Source of the DNA: Pseudomonas lalkuanensis
GTDB taxonomy: Bacteria > Pseudomonadota > Gammaproteobacteria > Pseudomonadales > Pseudomonadaceae
Reading direction: 5' to 3'
DNA length: 64,000 nt
Assembly (NCBI RefSeq): GCF_008807375.1
Contig: NZ_CP043311.1
Location: 4,940,001-5,004,000, forward strand
The position numbers and the translations under genes were made by a program. Below the pieces are notes generated by a model. The model searched no databases, was not told the origin of the DNA, and saw only the letters and a program-made list of their open reading frames with translations. Position 1 is the stretch's first letter; the number at the start of each line of letters is the position of its first letter. Below are positions 11,269 to 17,075 of this stretch, in pieces.

Positions 11269-11751
11269 TCAGGCCAGGGCCTTTTCGACGGCCTGGATCA
11301 GCGCGGGATCCTCCGGTGCGGTGCGTGGCGAGAAGCGCGCCAGCACGCGACCGTCCTTGCCGACGAGGAACTTCTCGAAGTTCCAGGTGATCTCGCCGGG
11401 AAACTCCGCGCCCTCGCCTGCCAGGAGGCGGTACAGCGGGTGGCGTGCCGAGCCGTTCACTTCGATCTTGCTGCCCAGGGGGAAGGTCACGCCGTAGTTC
11501 AGGCTGCAGAACTCGCGGATCTCTTCCTCGCTGCCCGGCTCCTGCCCGGCGAACTGGTTGCAGGGAAGACCGAGCACGGTGAAGCCCTTGTCGCGGTACT
11601 GCTGGTAGAGCTTTTCCAGCCCGGCGTACTGCGGGGTCAGGCCGCACTTGGAGGCGACGTTCACCACCAGCACCACCTGGCCCTTGTACGGCGCCAACGG
11701 CAAGTCCTGACCGTCAAGCGCGCGCAAATTGAGGTCGTGAAACGCACTCAT
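11269..11751 (-). CDS. Glutathione peroxidase (cysteine type)
   Basis: 160 residues. A thiol peroxidase of the GPx fold that reduces peroxides using thioredoxin or glutathione. The peroxidatic cysteine is in NVASKCGLTPQY (about residue 36), followed by LGLPCNQFAGQEPG with the second conserved cysteine and glutamine, and WNFEKFLV near the end, giving the Cys-Gln-Trp-Asn set. The start at 11751 has a GAGGAGTC site. It lies downstream of slyD but separated by a strong terminator, so it is a separate unit. Confidence 0.94.
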   Translation of the reverse strand: MSAFHDLNLRALDGQDLPLAPYKGQVVLVVNVASKCGLTPQYAGLEKLYQQYRDKGFTVLGLPCNQFAGQEPGSEEEIREFCSLNYGVTFPLGSKIEVNGSARHPLYRLLAGEGAEFPGEITWNFEKFLVGKDGRVLARFSPRTAPEDPALIQAVEKALA

Positions 11752-11877: not shown

Positions 11878-12363
11878 TCAGTGGTGGTGACCGCCTTCGC
11901 CGTGGATGTGACCGTGGGCGATCTCTTCGTCGCTGGCGTCACGCACCTTCATCACCTTGACCTGGAAGTTCAGGCGCTGGCCGGCCAGCGGATGGTTGCC
12001 GTCAACGGTGACGTCGTCACCGTCGATATCGCGGATGGTCACGATCTGCATGCTGCCGTCCGGGCCGGAAGCGTGGAACTGCATGCCGACTTCCAGCTGG
12101 TCGACGCCTTCGAACATGGCGCGGTCCAGGGTGGCGACCAGCTCGGCGCTGTACTCGCCATAGGCATCTTCCGGCTCGACGGCGACGTTCAGCTCGTCAC
12201 CGACCTGCTTGCCTTCCAGAGCGCGCTCCAGGCCGGCGATGATGTTGCCGGCGCCATGCAGGTACACCAGCGGGGCGCCGCCGGCGGAACTGTCGATCAC
12301 CTCACCGGCGTCGTTGGTAAGGGTATAGTCGATGGACACGGCCTTGTTGGCGGCGATCAGCAT
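11878..12363 (-). CDS. slyD: FKBP-type peptidyl-prolyl isomerase SlyD
   Basis: 161 residues. SlyD is a cytosolic prolyl isomerase and chaperone that also handles nickel. The sequence shows the split FKBP domain (YTLTNDAGEVIDSSAGGAPL, GLERALEGKQVGDE) with the insert-in-flap region (PEDAYGEYSAELV, about residues 65-130). The tail ends GHIHGEGGHHH, a short histidine-rich metal-binding end compared with the long tail of E. coli SlyD. Start 12363 has an AGAAGG-type site upstream. Only 18 bases separate it from the divergent DUF3565 gene. Confidence 0.93.
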   Translation of the reverse strand: MLIAANKAVSIDYTLTNDAGEVIDSSAGGAPLVYLHGAGNIIAGLERALEGKQVGDELNVAVEPEDAYGEYSAELVATLDRAMFEGVDQLEVGMQFHASGPDGSMQIVTIRDIDGDDVTVDGNHPLAGQRLNFQVKVMKVRDASDEEIAHGHIHGEGGHHH

Positions 12364-12381: not shown

Positions 12382-12657
12382 ATGAATGATGAAAACGCAA
12401 GTTTAACCGCGCGGCCGGTCGATTGCGACCCGAACGCTGACGGGCGGCCCCGGCTCGTCGGCTACAGGCAAGACGAAGACGGTCACTGGGTGGCGGTGCT
12501 TTCCTGCGGCCATACCCAGCACTTGCGGCACCAGCCGCCCTGGCAGTCACGCGCCTGGGTGCTCGACCCCGACCTGCGCGCCGCCCAGCTGGGCCGCCTG
12601 TTCCCCTGCGGCTGGTGCGCCCAGGGCCTGGCGCCCGAGTCCACTGAGGAAACCTGA
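12382..12657 (+). CDS. DUF3565 domain protein upstream of ackA
   Basis: 91 residues. The DUF3565 pattern is seen from residue 26: [30 protein letters not shown], then LFPCGWC. The cysteines and histidines (SCGHTQH and CGWC) suggest a small zinc site. Function unknown. The first 25 residues are not conserved in my memory of the family. It ends at 12657, which is also the first base of the ackA start (TGATG), so it is coupled to ackA. Confidence 0.8.
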
Positions 12658-13823
12658 TGCCCGCACGCAACATCCTGGTGATCCACGCGCGCAAGACGTC
12701 GCTGCGCTTCGCCCTGGTCAACGAAGCCCACAGCCAGTTCATCCTCCACGGCATGGCCGATGGACTCGGCAGCCGCGACGCCGAATTGCGCTGGCAGCGC
12801 GGCGGTGACAAGGACAGCCTGATGATCCCCAACGCCGACCACCGCGCCGCGCTGTCGCAGCTGCTGCCCATTGTTCAGGGCGCCGCCGGTGGCAAGCTGC
12901 ACGGCGTCGGCCACCACGTGCTGCACGGCGGCGAGCTGTTCACCTCCGCCTGCCGGGTGGACACCCAGGTGCTCCGTCGCCTGCAGGCCCTGGTCCCGCT
13001 GGCGCCGCAGCAGATGCCAGCCAGCCTGGTGGGCATCGACGCCGCCATGCACCTGCTGCCGAACCTGCCCCACGTCGCGGTGTTCGACACGGCCTTTCAC
13101 CAGACCATGCCCGAGCACGTCTACCGCCTCGCCCTGCCGGACGCCGTCTACCGCGACCACGGCCTGCGCCGCTATGCCTTCCACGGCAACAGCCACCGCT
13201 ATGCCAGCCGCCGTGCCGCCGAACTGGCCGGGCTTTCCCTCGGCGACAGCTGCTGGCTCTCCGCCCATCTGGGCGAGCACTGTTCCACCTGCGCCATCGT
13301 CAACGGCCAGAGCCGCGACGCCAGCATGAACCTGGTGATGGCGAGGCGCAGCGGTGACATCGACCCGCACCTCTACACCCAACTGCACCGCAGTCTTGGC
13401 TGGAGCCTGGAGAAGATCGACCAGGTGCTGCGCCAGGAAAGCGGCCTGCTCGGTCTCTCGGAACTGGCCAGCGACATGCGCAGCCTGGAACAGGCCCGCG
13501 ACCAGGGCCACGCGGGTGCCACCCTGGCCATCGAAGTCTTCTGCTACCGCCTGGCCAGGACCCTGGCCGCCGTGGGCTGCGCGCTGCCGCAGCTGGATGG
13601 GCTGATCTTCACCGGCGAGATCGGCGAGAATTCACCCCTTGTGCGCAGCCGCACGGTGGATCACCTGAAGCTGCTCAACCTGGCCATCGACCGCGAAGCC
13701 AATGCACGCTGCGTGCGTGGCGTCGCCGGCCCCATCCACAAGCGCGGTCATCCGCGCGTGCTGGTGGTACCGACCAACGAAGAACGCCAGATCGCCCTCG
13801 ACACCCTGGCCCTGCTCGCCTGA
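12657..13823 (+). CDS. ackA: Acetate kinase homologue with altered active site (probable pseudoenzyme)
   Basis: 388 residues, close to normal length (about 395-400), colinear with AckA from end to end and in the ackA-pta locus. Catalytic motifs differ from the family: the N-terminal VLNCGSSS loop is VIHARKTS (residues 8-15), the HRVVHGG arginine is His87, the PLHNP histidine is Gln119, HLGNG is HLGEH (204-208), the GGIGEN glycine is Glu321, and about six residues of the TPLEG loop before MARRSGD (228-234) are missing. Asp144, His176, Arg231 and the TNEE end remain. The frame is intact. Acetate kinase activity is doubtful; a structural or regulatory role is inference. Confidence 0.85.
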
Positions 13824-13845: not shown

Positions 13846-15882
13846 ATGCACTGCTTTTTCATCGCCCCGACCGGATTCGGCGTCGGCCTGACCTCCACCA
13901 GCCTGGGCCTGGTGCGCGCCCTGGAGCTGGCTGGCCTGCAGGTCGGTTTCCTCAAGCCCGTGGCCCAGCCACACCCCGGCGACCTCGGCCCGGAACGCTC
14001 CACCGAACTGGTGGCACGTACCCACGGCCTGAAGCCCCCGATGCCCCTTTCCCAGTCCCAAGTCGAGCGGATGCTCGCCGATGGCCAACTGGACGAACTG
14101 CTGGATGAGATCACCGGCCTGTTCCACCAGGCAGCCGAAGGCAAGGACGTGGTGATCGTCGAAGGCATGGTGCCGACCCGCCATGCCAGCTACGCCGCGC
14201 GGATCAACTTCCACCTGTCCAAAAGCCTCGATGCCGACGTGATCCTGGTGTCGGCGCCGGAAGACGAAAGCCTTTCCGAACTGTCAGACCGCCTGGAGAT
14301 CCAGGCCCAGCAGTTCGGCGGCCCACGCGACCCGAAGGTGCTTGGAGTGATCCTCAACAAGGTGCGCGACGAAGGGTTCGCCCGCCGTCTCAAGGACCAG
14401 TCCCCCCTGCTGCGCGGCGACGACTTCCGCCTGCTCGGCAGCGTGCCCTGGCTGGATGAACTGAACGCACCGCGTACCCGCGACGTCGCCGAACTGCTGC
14501 AGGCCCAGGTCATCAACGCCGGCGACTACGACCAGCGCCGGGTGCAGAAAATCGTGGTCTGCGCGCGCACCGTGCCCAACACCGTGCAGCAGCTCAAGCC
14601 GGGCGTGCTGGTGGTGACCCCGGGGGACCGCGACGACATCATCCTCGCCGCCAGCCTCGCCGCCATGAACGGCGTGCCGCTCGCCGGCTTGCTGCTCTCC
14701 AGCGACATCCAGCCCGACCCGCGCACCCTGGAGCTATGCCGTGGCGCCCTGCAAGGCGGCCTGCCGGTACTGGGCGTGGCCACCGGCACCTACGACACGG
14801 CGACCAACCTGAACCGGATGAACAAGGAAATCCCGGTGGACGACCGCGAGCGCGCGGAGAAGGTCACGGAATTCGTCGCACGCAATCTCGACCTCGACTG
14901 GCTGCGCGCCCGTTGTGGCGCCCCCAGCGCGAGCCGACGCCTGTCGCCGCCGGCCTTCCGCCATCGTCTGATCCAGCAGGCGCAGCTCGCCGGCAAGCGC
15001 ATCGTCCTGCCCGAAGGCAGCGAGCCGCGCACCGTGCAGGCCGCCGCCGCCTGCCAGGCCCGTGGCATCGCCGATTGCGTGTTGCTGGCCCGGCCGGAGG
15101 ATGTGCACGCGGTGGCCCGCGCCCACGGCATCGAGCTGCCCGAGGGCTTGGAGATCCTCGATCCGGACCTGATCCGTGAACGCTACGTGCAGCCCATGGT
15201 GGACCTGCGCCAGAACAAGAGCCTGAACGCGCCGATGGCCACCGCGCAGCTCGAAGACAACGTCGTGCTGGGCACCATGATGCTCGCGCTGGATGAAGTG
15301 GACGGCCTGGTGTCCGGCGCCATCCACCCCACCGCCAACACCATCCGCCCTGCGCTGCAACTGATCAAGTCGGCACCCGGCTACCGCATCGCCTCCTCCG
15401 TCTACCTGATGCTGCTGCCGGAACAGGTGGTGGTCTACGGCGACTGCGCGGTGAACCCCGAGCCCGATGCCAGCGACCTGGCGGAAATCGCCCTGCAGAG
15501 CGCGGACTCGGCCGAAGCCTTGGGGATAGTCCCGAGGGTGGCGATGATCTGCGATTCGCTCGATGAGGCCGCGCTGGCCAAGGTCCGCGAAGCCGCCCGC
15601 CTGGCCCGCGCCGCCCGCCCCGAGTTGACCATCGAAGGCCCCCTGCCCTGGTCAGCCGCCGCCCGCGAGGGCAGCACCACGGTCTTCGTCTTCCCCGACC
15701 TCGCCACCGGCGATGCAGCCTACAAGGACGCGCAGCAGAGCCACCCCGTGGTGAGCGGCGGCCTGATGCTGCAGGGCCTGCGCAAGCCAGTGAACGACCT
15801 GCCGCGCAATGTCCTGGTGGACGACATCATCCACACCATCGCCCTGACGGCGATACAGGCGGCGTGCGGCAGTGAAAGCTGA
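13846..15882 (+). CDS. pta: Phosphate acetyltransferase homologue with altered catalytic loop
   Basis: 678 residues against about 704 in P. aeruginosa. The enzyme normally converts acetyl-CoA and phosphate to acetyl phosphate. Order: P-loop-like domain (IAPTGFGVGLTS), DRTGG-type middle domain, C-terminal transferase domain from about residue 365. Retained: EGSEPRT, ANTIRP, YGDCAVNP, Arg654 and Asp660. Changed: the NDLSRG serine is Pro653 and its glycine Asn655; DLNTGN is DLATGD (618-623); VQR is AQQ (629-631); the SYSTGTSG loop is replaced by CDSLDEA (569-575); a further loop is shortened. Start at 13846 follows AAGGAG, 22 bases after ackA. Confidence 0.87.
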   Translation: MHCFFIAPTGFGVGLTSTSLGLVRALELAGLQVGFLKPVAQPHPGDLGPERSTELVARTHGLKPPMPLSQSQVERMLADGQLDELLDEITGLFHQAAEGKDVVIVEGMVPTRHASYAARINFHLSKSLDADVILVSAPEDESLSELSDRLEIQAQQFGGPRDPKVLGVILNKVRDEGFARRLKDQSPLLRGDDFRLLGSVPWLDELNAPRTRDVAELLQAQVINAGDYDQRRVQKIVVCARTVPNTVQQLKPGVLVVTPGDRDDIILAASLAAMNGVPLAGLLLSSDIQPDPRTLELCRGALQGGLPVLGVATGTYDTATNLNRMNKEIPVDDRERAEKVTEFVARNLDLDWLRARCGAPSASRRLSPPAFRHRLIQQAQLAGKRIVLPEGSEPRTVQAAAACQARGIADCVLLARPEDVHAVARAHGIELPEGLEILDPDLIRERYVQPMVDLRQNKSLNAPMATAQLEDNVVLGTMMLALDEVDGLVSGAIHPTANTIRPALQLIKSAPGYRIASSVYLMLLPEQVVVYGDCAVNPEPDASDLAEIALQSADSAEALGIVPRVAMICDSLDEAALAKVREAARLARAARPELTIEGPLPWSAAAREGSTTVFVFPDLATGDAAYKDAQQSHPVVSGGLMLQGLRKPVNDLPRNVLVDDIIHTIALTAIQAACGSES

Positions 15883-15994: not shown

Positions 15995-16169
15995 GAAAAA
16001 GCGAAGAGCTTTCCTGCGAGCAACTTCGACCACCCGGTCACCCTTCGCGCTTGCAGTTGAGTGAACAACCGTTAACCTTTGCCAGCATTCTGCCCGCGGC
16101 CAGGGAACGCAGCGGGCCCGTCCATAACGAGGTGGCCACGACCACCCCACGGTGAGGCTCCATCCCTTC

Positions 16170-17075
16170 ATGCTCAGCTTTATCCCCTCTCCCCTGCTCG
16201 GTGTCCTGGCGGCGCTGCTGCTGGCCCTCAACACCCTGTTCTGGTGCGTGCCGCTGTTCGCCGTCACAGCGCTGAAACTGCTGCTGCCGTTCCGTGCCAC
16301 GAAGGGTGTGCTGAACCGGGCCGCGAGCTTCATCGCCGAAGGCTGGATCAGCTGCAACAAGCTGTGGATGCGCCTGGTACGCGACACCCGCTGGGACGTC
16401 GACGGCCTGGCAGGGCTGGATTACCAGCACAGCTACCTGGTCACCAGCAATCACCAGAGCTGGGTGGATATCCTGGTCCTGCAACACCTGTTCAACCGCC
16501 GCATCCGCCTGCTTCGCTTCTTCCTCAAGCAGGAGCTGATCTGGGTCCCGGTGATCGGCCTGTGCTGGTGGGCGCTGGATTTCCCCTTCATGAAGCGCTA
16601 CTCCAAGGCCTACCTGGCCAAGCACCCGGAGAAGAAAGGCAAGGACCTGGAAACCACCCGCCGCACCTGCGCGAAATTCCGTGACAACCCGGTGGGTATC
16701 TTCAATTTCCTCGAAGGCACCCGCTTCACCCGCGCCAAGCACGATCAACAGGATTCGCCCTTCCAGTACCTGCTCAAGCCCAAGGCCGGCGGCATCGCCT
16801 TCGTGCTGGACGCCATGGGTGAGCAGCTGCATTCGCTGGTCAACGTCACCATCCACTACCCCGATGGCAACCCGAACTTCTGGACCCTGCTGGCCGGCCG
16901 CCTGCGTCAGGTCGTGGTGCGCATCGAGAAACTGGATATCCCCCGCGAATTCATCGGCCGCAACTACGACCAGGACGAGCAGTACCGGCTGGCCTTCCAG
17001 CAATGGGTTAACCGCCTTTGGGAAACCAAGGATGCCCAACTGGCGAAGCTGCACCAGCAGTTCCCGCCGGCCTGA
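16170..17075 (+). CDS. PlsC-type acyltransferase (YihG-like)
   Basis: 301 residues from the ATG at 16170; a GTG at 16152 would add six residues. A membrane-bound 1-acylglycerol-3-phosphate O-acyltransferase relative. Residues about 5-40 form a long hydrophobic anchor. Motif I is NHQSWVD (about residues 92-98), motif III is FLEGTRFT (about 175-182), then KAGGIAFVLDAM. The overall pattern is that of the YihG group, which acts on lysophospholipids in the inner membrane. It stands alone between the REP doublet and a terminator. Confidence 0.86.
   Translation: MLSFIPSPLLGVLAALLLALNTLFWCVPLFAVTALKLLLPFRATKGVLNRAASFIAEGWISCNKLWMRLVRDTRWDVDGLAGLDYQHSYLVTSNHQSWVDILVLQHLFNRRIRLLRFFLKQELIWVPVIGLCWWALDFPFMKRYSKAYLAKHPEKKGKDLETTRRTCAKFRDNPVGIFNFLEGTRFTRAKHDQQDSPFQYLLKPKAGGIAFVLDAMGEQLHSLVNVTIHYPDGNPNFWTLLAGRLRQVVVRIEKLDIPREFIGRNYDQDEQYRLAFQQWVNRLWETKDAQLAKLHQQFPPA

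Follow-up and report, generated by a model that had tools for sequence, protein, structure and literature searches.

Both active sites of the ackA-pta pair are altered in a clade of Pseudomonas, suggesting a possible pair of pseudoenzymes kept under purifying selection

The stretch of DNA analyzed here (the window) comprises 64,000 nucleotides of the Pseudomonas lalkuanensis genome and carries an ackA-pta locus in which the catalytic regions of both gene products are altered. The first gene (12657..13823, forward strand) is an open frame for a divergent AckA, a putative pseudo-acetate kinase of 388 amino acids, so that the position, length and intact frame given in the initial annotation agree with the sequence. 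The protein matches PF00871 over its full length with 328 bits (cut-off, 22), and its 317 bits against TIGR00016 exceed the cut-off of 293 for membership of that family. A profile search showed it to be the sole PF00871 match in the 6.06-Mb single-contig genome. The second gene (13846..15882, forward strand), identified from profile matches and alignment, encodes a Pta of 678 amino acids with an altered catalytic domain. Upstream, a DUF3565 gene (12382..12657, forward strand) overlaps the start of ackA, its stop codon and the ackA ATG forming the sequence TGATG, an arrangement in which translational coupling is possible. This gene served as a selection control, as did an FKBP-type isomerase gene (slyD-like; 11878..12363, reverse strand), a glutathione peroxidase gene (gpx; 11269..11751, reverse strand) and an acyltransferase gene labelled plsC (16152..17075, forward strand). 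When we compared the neighborhoods of 14 taxa from the clade with the altered pair and 12 taxa with canonical genes, slyD and gpx were present in all 26, and plsC in 13 of the 14 and in all 12. The gene order at ackA-pta is common to the clade and its canonical relatives, and no new gene was found beside ackA-pta in the clade.

Of the 18 genomes searched in the genus, 13, which make up the P. resinovorans group and include that of the window, encode the divergent AckA, with 87 to 100% identity and no internal stop. Named carriers include Pseudomonas sp. JM0905a and BN411 (98%), P. resinovorans DSM 21078 (96%), P. taiwanensis xwS3 (93%) and P. boanensis DB1 (87%). Since 13 genomes agree, sequencing error is ruled out as the cause of the changes. 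Among the matches listed from a genome scan (80 of 526 loci), 7 had 87 to 98% identity and 73 had at most 74%, with canonical NCGS starts; among those listed from a protein search (120 of 7920), 10 had 87 to 95% and the others at most 74%. Within both sets of listed matches, the divergent form is confined to the genus of the window. The other five genomes of the genus comprise three with a canonical ackA (G001, G002 and G005; 72 to 73% identity to the window AckA), one with a canonical-type gene whose frame is broken (G017) and one with a deletion remnant (G013). The break in G017 (L112/L113) is a single one in a C-rich stretch, where sequencing error or a fresh loss is possible. It is also the only frameshift that a check of sister genomes turned up in the genus, and all 13 divergent frames are free of stops. 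A second, canonical ackA, the search for which had been proposed in the initial annotation, was detected with PF00871 neither in the window genome nor in any of the 18 genus genomes, and each clade genome holds at most one PF00871 gene. Elsewhere in the family, G026, G028, G032 and G033 have two or three AckA homologues each.

G013 lies inside the clade. Most of its ackA is deleted and no AckA match is left, while pta is intact. The remnant (1373-1500 of L121) sits between DUF3565 and pta and aligns to the start and end of the divergent ackA, as well as to the K13-T14-S15 stretch, which is of the divergent type, and to a further stretch of 12 residues. This loss shows that the role of AckA is dispensable in at least one species and, given that pta was kept, that AckA and Pta do not strictly depend on each other, unless the loss happened only recently.

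In order to locate the changes in AckA, we reduced 111 loci to 98 distinct genes (13 divergent and 85 canonical) by removing L001, a repeat of the window, and duplicates. In the canonical set, 206 columns reach a conservation of 95% or more, and of these the 13 divergent proteins all have 23 fully replaced and 6 missing. Eighteen of the 23 replaced columns lie at most three residues from a listed ligand site or in LOOP3; for the conserved columns without full replacement the figure is 66 of 177 (Fisher p = 2.3e-4), so the concentration of changes at the active site, already claimed in the initial annotation, goes beyond chance. The listed sites are 20 ligand and metal sites of StAckA from PMC3475010, with positions transferred by motif. 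Every one of the 13 divergent proteins has lost ten of these, half of the listed sites of an acetate kinase, by replacement or deletion.

The altered sites, all on the forward strand, are distributed over the known motifs. The former PHOSPHATE1 loop (12684..12707; canonical NCGSSS..K) now reads H10-A11-R12-K13-T14-S15 followed by R17, turning VINCGSSS into VIHARKTS and replacing Asn10 by His and, mildly, Lys17 by Arg; H10, A11, R12 and R17 are found in all 13 proteins, while positions 13 and 14 vary. At 12915..12923, H87 stands for Arg91 of MtAck and StAckA and L89 for Val93 of StAckA in all 13. The canonical LHN has become Q118-Q119-M120 (13008..13016), with Leu122 replaced by Gln or Asp and His123 of StAckA by Gln; Q119 and M120 occur in 13 and Q118 in 12 proteins. 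In the former PHOSPHATE2 motif (13275..13280; canonical NG), where HLGNG has become HLGEH, E207 and H208 take the places of Asn213 and Gly214, H208 in every divergent protein and position 207 varying among E, A, D and L. Finally, the second Gly of GGIGEN in the ADENOSINE motif (Gly333 in StAckA, Gly331 in MtAck) is E321 (13617..13619) in all 13. Of these changes, VIHARKTS, His87, Gln119, HLGEH and Glu321 had been pointed out in the initial annotation and are all present in the sequence. Its deletion of a TPLEG loop stands as a loss of LOOP3 but not in extent: six residues (GLTPLE, Pro234 included) are gone in all 13 proteins at 13326..13331, and the Gly that follows is N225.

Ten StAckA sites are kept in all 13 proteins, namely Asp150, residue 181 (printed as Ala181 in PMC3475010 and Phe in our alignment), His182, Gly212, Arg243, Asp285, Arg287, Ile334, Asn337 and Glu387. 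In the numbering of the window AckA, this leaves Asp144 and Glu375 as metal ligands, along with His176 and Arg231, and Asp273, Arg275 and Asn325 on the adenosine side; the retention of Asp144, His176 and Arg231 had been noted before. Of the 23 replaced columns, 14 show no variation within the clade, while for all columns the figure is 285 of 388, so that the new residues are somewhat less conserved than the average column and are alone no proof of a new site. An AlphaFold model of AckA (pLDDT 73.7, with weak loops, from 58 close relatives), which we used for the fold only, retrieved acetate and propionate kinases in Foldseek, the best being KpAckA 7fj7, Thermotoga 2iir and Salmonella 3slc.

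Published mutants give an idea of what these replacements may cost. Table 1 of PMC4390882 gives specific activities about 118- to 200-fold down for each of the Asn211Ser, Gly239Ser and Gly331Gln variants of Methanosarcina AckA, and PMC6461089 reports a kcat of 0.3% of wild type for MtAck R91A. In the clade, Arg91, Asn211, Gly331 and the PHOSPHATE1 and LOOP3 positions are altered together. Judged from these residues and mutants, there is good support for a loss of normal AckA catalysis, and normal acetate kinase activity of the divergent protein appears very unlikely. That it could still be a working acetate kinase with unusual residues, as the TIGR00016 score of 317 versus 293 bits would allow, is hardly credible, given that it combines changes at residues that, when altered singly, cost other AckAs about 99% of their activity (PMC4390882, PMC6461089), and that Pta is altered as well. 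Two AcsA proteins score over the cut-off in the window genome, so activation of acetate is still possible there; a phosphoketolase, as another source of acetyl phosphate, was searched for in that genome and gave no match.

The changes in Pta were absent from the initial annotation. We retained 87 distinct genes from 102 loci with a full Pta after dropping six repeats and duplicates, 14 from the clade (G013 included) and 73 others. These 73 conserve 398 columns at 95% or more; 26 of the columns differ in every clade protein and 91 in one or more of the 14. The main losses fall into the last part of the PTA_PTB domain (residues 561-678; 15526..15879, forward strand): the YSTG of the YSTGDSG motif is deleted and an Asn is replaced by Asp (D623) in all 14 proteins, and in 13 of the 14 most of the KAPNSPVAG loop is missing and SRG reads PRN, with the catalytic-site Ser replaced by Pro (P653) and the Gly by Asn. 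Most of the clade thus lacks some of the site-1 residues and conserved catalytic-domain loops of a phosphotransacetylase. In MtPta, replacing Ser309 and Arg310 strongly affects kcat (PMC6461089), and Asp316 is the proposed base (PMC9706017); the correspondence to MtPta Ser309 and Asn279 was placed by motif, not by structure. An alignment of 41 Pta proteins, clade included, shows no variation at the active-site Arg (R654) and Asp (D660). As for an acetyl-CoA pocket of the kind seen in MaeB, K627 and Q630 are likewise invariant and Y626 nearly so, yet the Asn-to-Asp change and the deleted loop are found in the clade.

Profile scores follow this pattern. PF01515 gives 397 to 402 bits in four canonical-type genomes, 340 in G010 and 251 to 280 in the other 13 clade genomes. 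The window Pta is above the cut-offs of PF01515 (265 bits; cut-off, 24) and PRK05632 (783 bits; cut-off, 418) and, as the one protein scanned against it, below the equivalog cut-off of TIGR00651 (268 versus 311 bits). G010 is an intermediate: its Pta keeps the SRG motif and the loop and its AckA already has the active-site changes, showing that the Pta catalytic domain kept changing after AckA had changed. The model of the window Pta has a mean pLDDT of 80.0 and predicted secondary structure throughout, with partly lower confidence in the C-terminal domain. As for a replacement Pta, the only other PTA_PTB match per genome is one of 24 to 32 bits in a 337-amino-acid frame, which we take to be PdxA, and this candidate was rejected. 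Among relatives without AckA, Pta gave no match in G022 and G029 and weak matches in G038 and G043. In the outgroup, the Pta proteins of L088, L092, L094-L096, L098-L100, L103, L106 and L108, mostly from the Stutzerimonas stutzeri group, share 61 to 63% identity with that of the window and those of other loci, S. azotifigens (L060) included, about 70 to 75%, so a replacement of pta in the S. stutzeri group is possible.

One-ratio codon models, fitted separately to 14 clade genomes (13 for AckA) and 12 canonical ones, gave omega values of 0.040 (clade) and 0.063 (canonical) for AckA. For Pta, the corresponding values were 0.030 and 0.069 for the AAA_26 domain (residues 1-210; 13846..14475, forward strand), 0.009 and 0.042 over the 120 codons of the DRTGG domain (residues 211-330; 14476..14835, forward strand), the most constrained part of Pta, 0.033 and 0.048 for the first part of PTA, and 0.111 and 0.035 for its last part, which is relaxed threefold and still constrained. 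The neighbors gave 0.027 and 0.066 (slyD), 0.019 and 0.041 (gpx), and 0.068 and 0.104 (plsC). Since omega is lower throughout the clade, AckA, with a clade-to-canonical ratio of 0.63 versus 0.41 to 0.65 for the neighbors, is neither relaxed nor tightened relative to them, and only the last part of PTA is relaxed; the DRTGG domain looks tightened relative to the neighbors.

The conserved ligand residues could fit a different explanation, in which AckA and Pta would now be enzymes for other substrates, AckA for example an acyl-phosphate phosphatase or a kinase with another donor, whereas Pta would transfer a different acyl group. Asp144, Glu375, His176, Arg231, Asp273, Arg275 and Asn325 of AckA persist in all 13 proteins, 14 of the 23 replaced columns carry one new residue throughout the clade, and Pta keeps R654 and D660. 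However, both phosphate loops, LOOP3 and the acetate pocket of AckA were lost together, and a freely varying position 207 and a relaxed last part of PTA are unlike a newly tuned active site, so we regard this new chemistry as unlikely, though a serious competitor.

Branch models of 16 of the 26 taxa (15 for plsC) add a time course, with nine stem tests (threshold, p < 0.0056) and imprecise stem estimates. For AckA, omega was 0.071 in the background, 0.265 on the clade stem and 0.050 within the clade (p = 8e-5 for stem versus background), and a stem value of 1 is disfavored (2dlnL, 5.8). The DRTGG stem reached 2.9, not distinguishable from 1 (p = 5e-4 versus background), and that of the first part of PTA 0.33 (p = 6e-4); with AckA, these are the tests that passed. 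The AAA stem (0.47, p = 0.022) missed the threshold, and the last part of PTA was not significant (0.14, p = 0.15; 0.119 within the clade). The neighbor stems were not significant either (p = 0.84 for slyD, 0.31 for DUF3565, 0.25 for gpx and 0.055 for plsC), although plsC, with an estimate of 1.76, is not a clean control. Relative-rate counts of G000 against G005 with PA7 as the outgroup were 61 to 21 for AckA and 29 to 2 for the last part of PTA, and in protein trees the clade is monophyletic, with stems of 0.228 for AckA, 0.175 for Pta and 0.048 for three joined neighbors. Both ackA and pta thus went through a burst on the clade stem followed by constraint.

This pattern bears on two further explanations. 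If the canonical proteins already had a moonlighting role, for example in a complex or in regulation, it may simply have been kept once fermentation became unnecessary, with nothing gained; the unchanged constraint of AckA relative to its neighbors and the shared gene order agree with this, but plain loss of catalysis does not predict a stem burst in the DRTGG and first PTA parts as well, and we consider it distinctly unlikely. A slow decay with lag, with both genes on their way out, could draw on the ackA deletion in G013, the relaxed last part of PTA and the intermediate Pta of G010. Thirteen stop-free frames and an in-clade AckA omega of 0.040 over a tree length of 2.9 speak against it and make it highly improbable. 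The latter value, far from 1, together with the single ackA and the accelerated stem, supports the suggestion of the initial annotation that the protein was repurposed rather than decaying.

A kept fold, lost catalytic residues and purifying selection are found together here, the combination that marks pseudoenzymes. We therefore see an even chance that the ackA-pta pair consists of pseudoenzymes acting as a non-catalytic ligand sensor or scaffold, with activation of acetate left to AcsA. In the clade ancestor, AckA would have lost its ATP-phosphate and acetate/acetyl-phosphate sites and Pta would have begun to lose its CoA/acetyl-phosphate site; the loss of the sites is an observed sequence change, and that of the activities we infer from published mutants. 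The AckA body and the AAA and DRTGG domains of Pta then came under the strong purifying selection that we observe, indicating that these parts still do something. AckA and the N-terminal domains of Pta might form the sensor or scaffold; DRTGG, under tighter constraint than any other part, would be its likely sensory core. More speculatively, the invariant basic H10-A11-R12 may face E321 and H208 across the old AckA cleft and could hold the AckA domains closed without ATP, where the ATP phosphates once bridged them. A regulatory role is known for the DRTGG domain of CBS-pyrophosphatases. Its occurrence in those proteins is described in PMC7226116. In a stronger version, a single bacterial genus would have turned the whole AckA-Pta pathway into a non-catalytic sensor of two proteins (a DRTGG-centered Pta and an AckA with its ATP cleft closed by cross-cleft charges, H10/R12 towards E321) that signals to a partner; this is tentative, and we would not favor it over its negation. 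Several observations count against the pseudoenzyme reading: the G013 Pta does without AckA, R654 and D660 are kept, the last part of PTA is still constrained and shows no significant stem effect, plsC is not a clean control, G010 keeps SRG and the loop, and neither a ligand nor a partner came to light. With ten AckA ligand sites kept, other catalysis also seems possible. After its ackA loss, G013 shows no private change in the AAA or DRTGG domain; its ratio of private amino-acid to private synonymous changes over the whole Pta is 0.52, in the upper half of the 14.

The AckA-Pta pathway and the signal acetyl phosphate are both textbook material, and the clade may offer a natural separation of catalytic from non-catalytic AckA and Pta roles, a question that a soil bacterium makes accessible to testing. 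Both proteins still pass the NCBIfam models TIGR00016 and PRK05632, so automatic annotation calls them enzymes, and metabolic models of clade species would hold a fermentation route that is probably lacking. Among the open-licence papers listed in literature searches, none describes, judged by titles and the starts of abstracts, a Pseudomonas AckA that is inactive. There are precedents for pseudoenzymes and for PTA domains without catalysis; a clade-wide AckA-Pta pair with both sites altered was not found among those papers.

Compared with canonical AckA (PF00871, TIGR00016), the clade protein has the same fold, the same locus and about 72% identity to Pseudomonas AckA, but PHOSPHATE1, PHOSPHATE2, LOOP3, the adenosine Gly, Arg91, His123 and the acetate pocket are changed or deleted. 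The ASKHA kinase-like fold has been reused without kinase activity in ROK repressors, which have an added DNA-binding domain, and in TsaB, which has an active paralogue as its partner; unlike systems with an active paralogue, the window genome has no active AckA paralogue. A ROK repressor (5f7p) appears at rank 48 among the Foldseek matches to the AckA model. For Pta, the closest parallel is the PTA fold of MaeB hybrid malic enzymes, which according to PMC7902834 apparently lacks catalytic residues and acts as an acetyl-CoA sensor, and malic-enzyme chains match the C-terminal domain of the window Pta with 94 to 125 bits. However, the PTA of MaeB is fused to a malic enzyme, whereas the clade Pta stands alone as an AAA-DRTGG-PTA protein next to an altered AckA and has lost part of its CoA-side residues, which makes CoA sensing doubtful. 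The pyrophosphate-dependent acetate kinase of Entamoeba histolytica also differs at the Gly331, Asn211 and Gly239 positions (PMC4390882); that enzyme is active with pyrophosphate/phosphate, whereas the clade AckA is additionally changed at its acetate-side sites.
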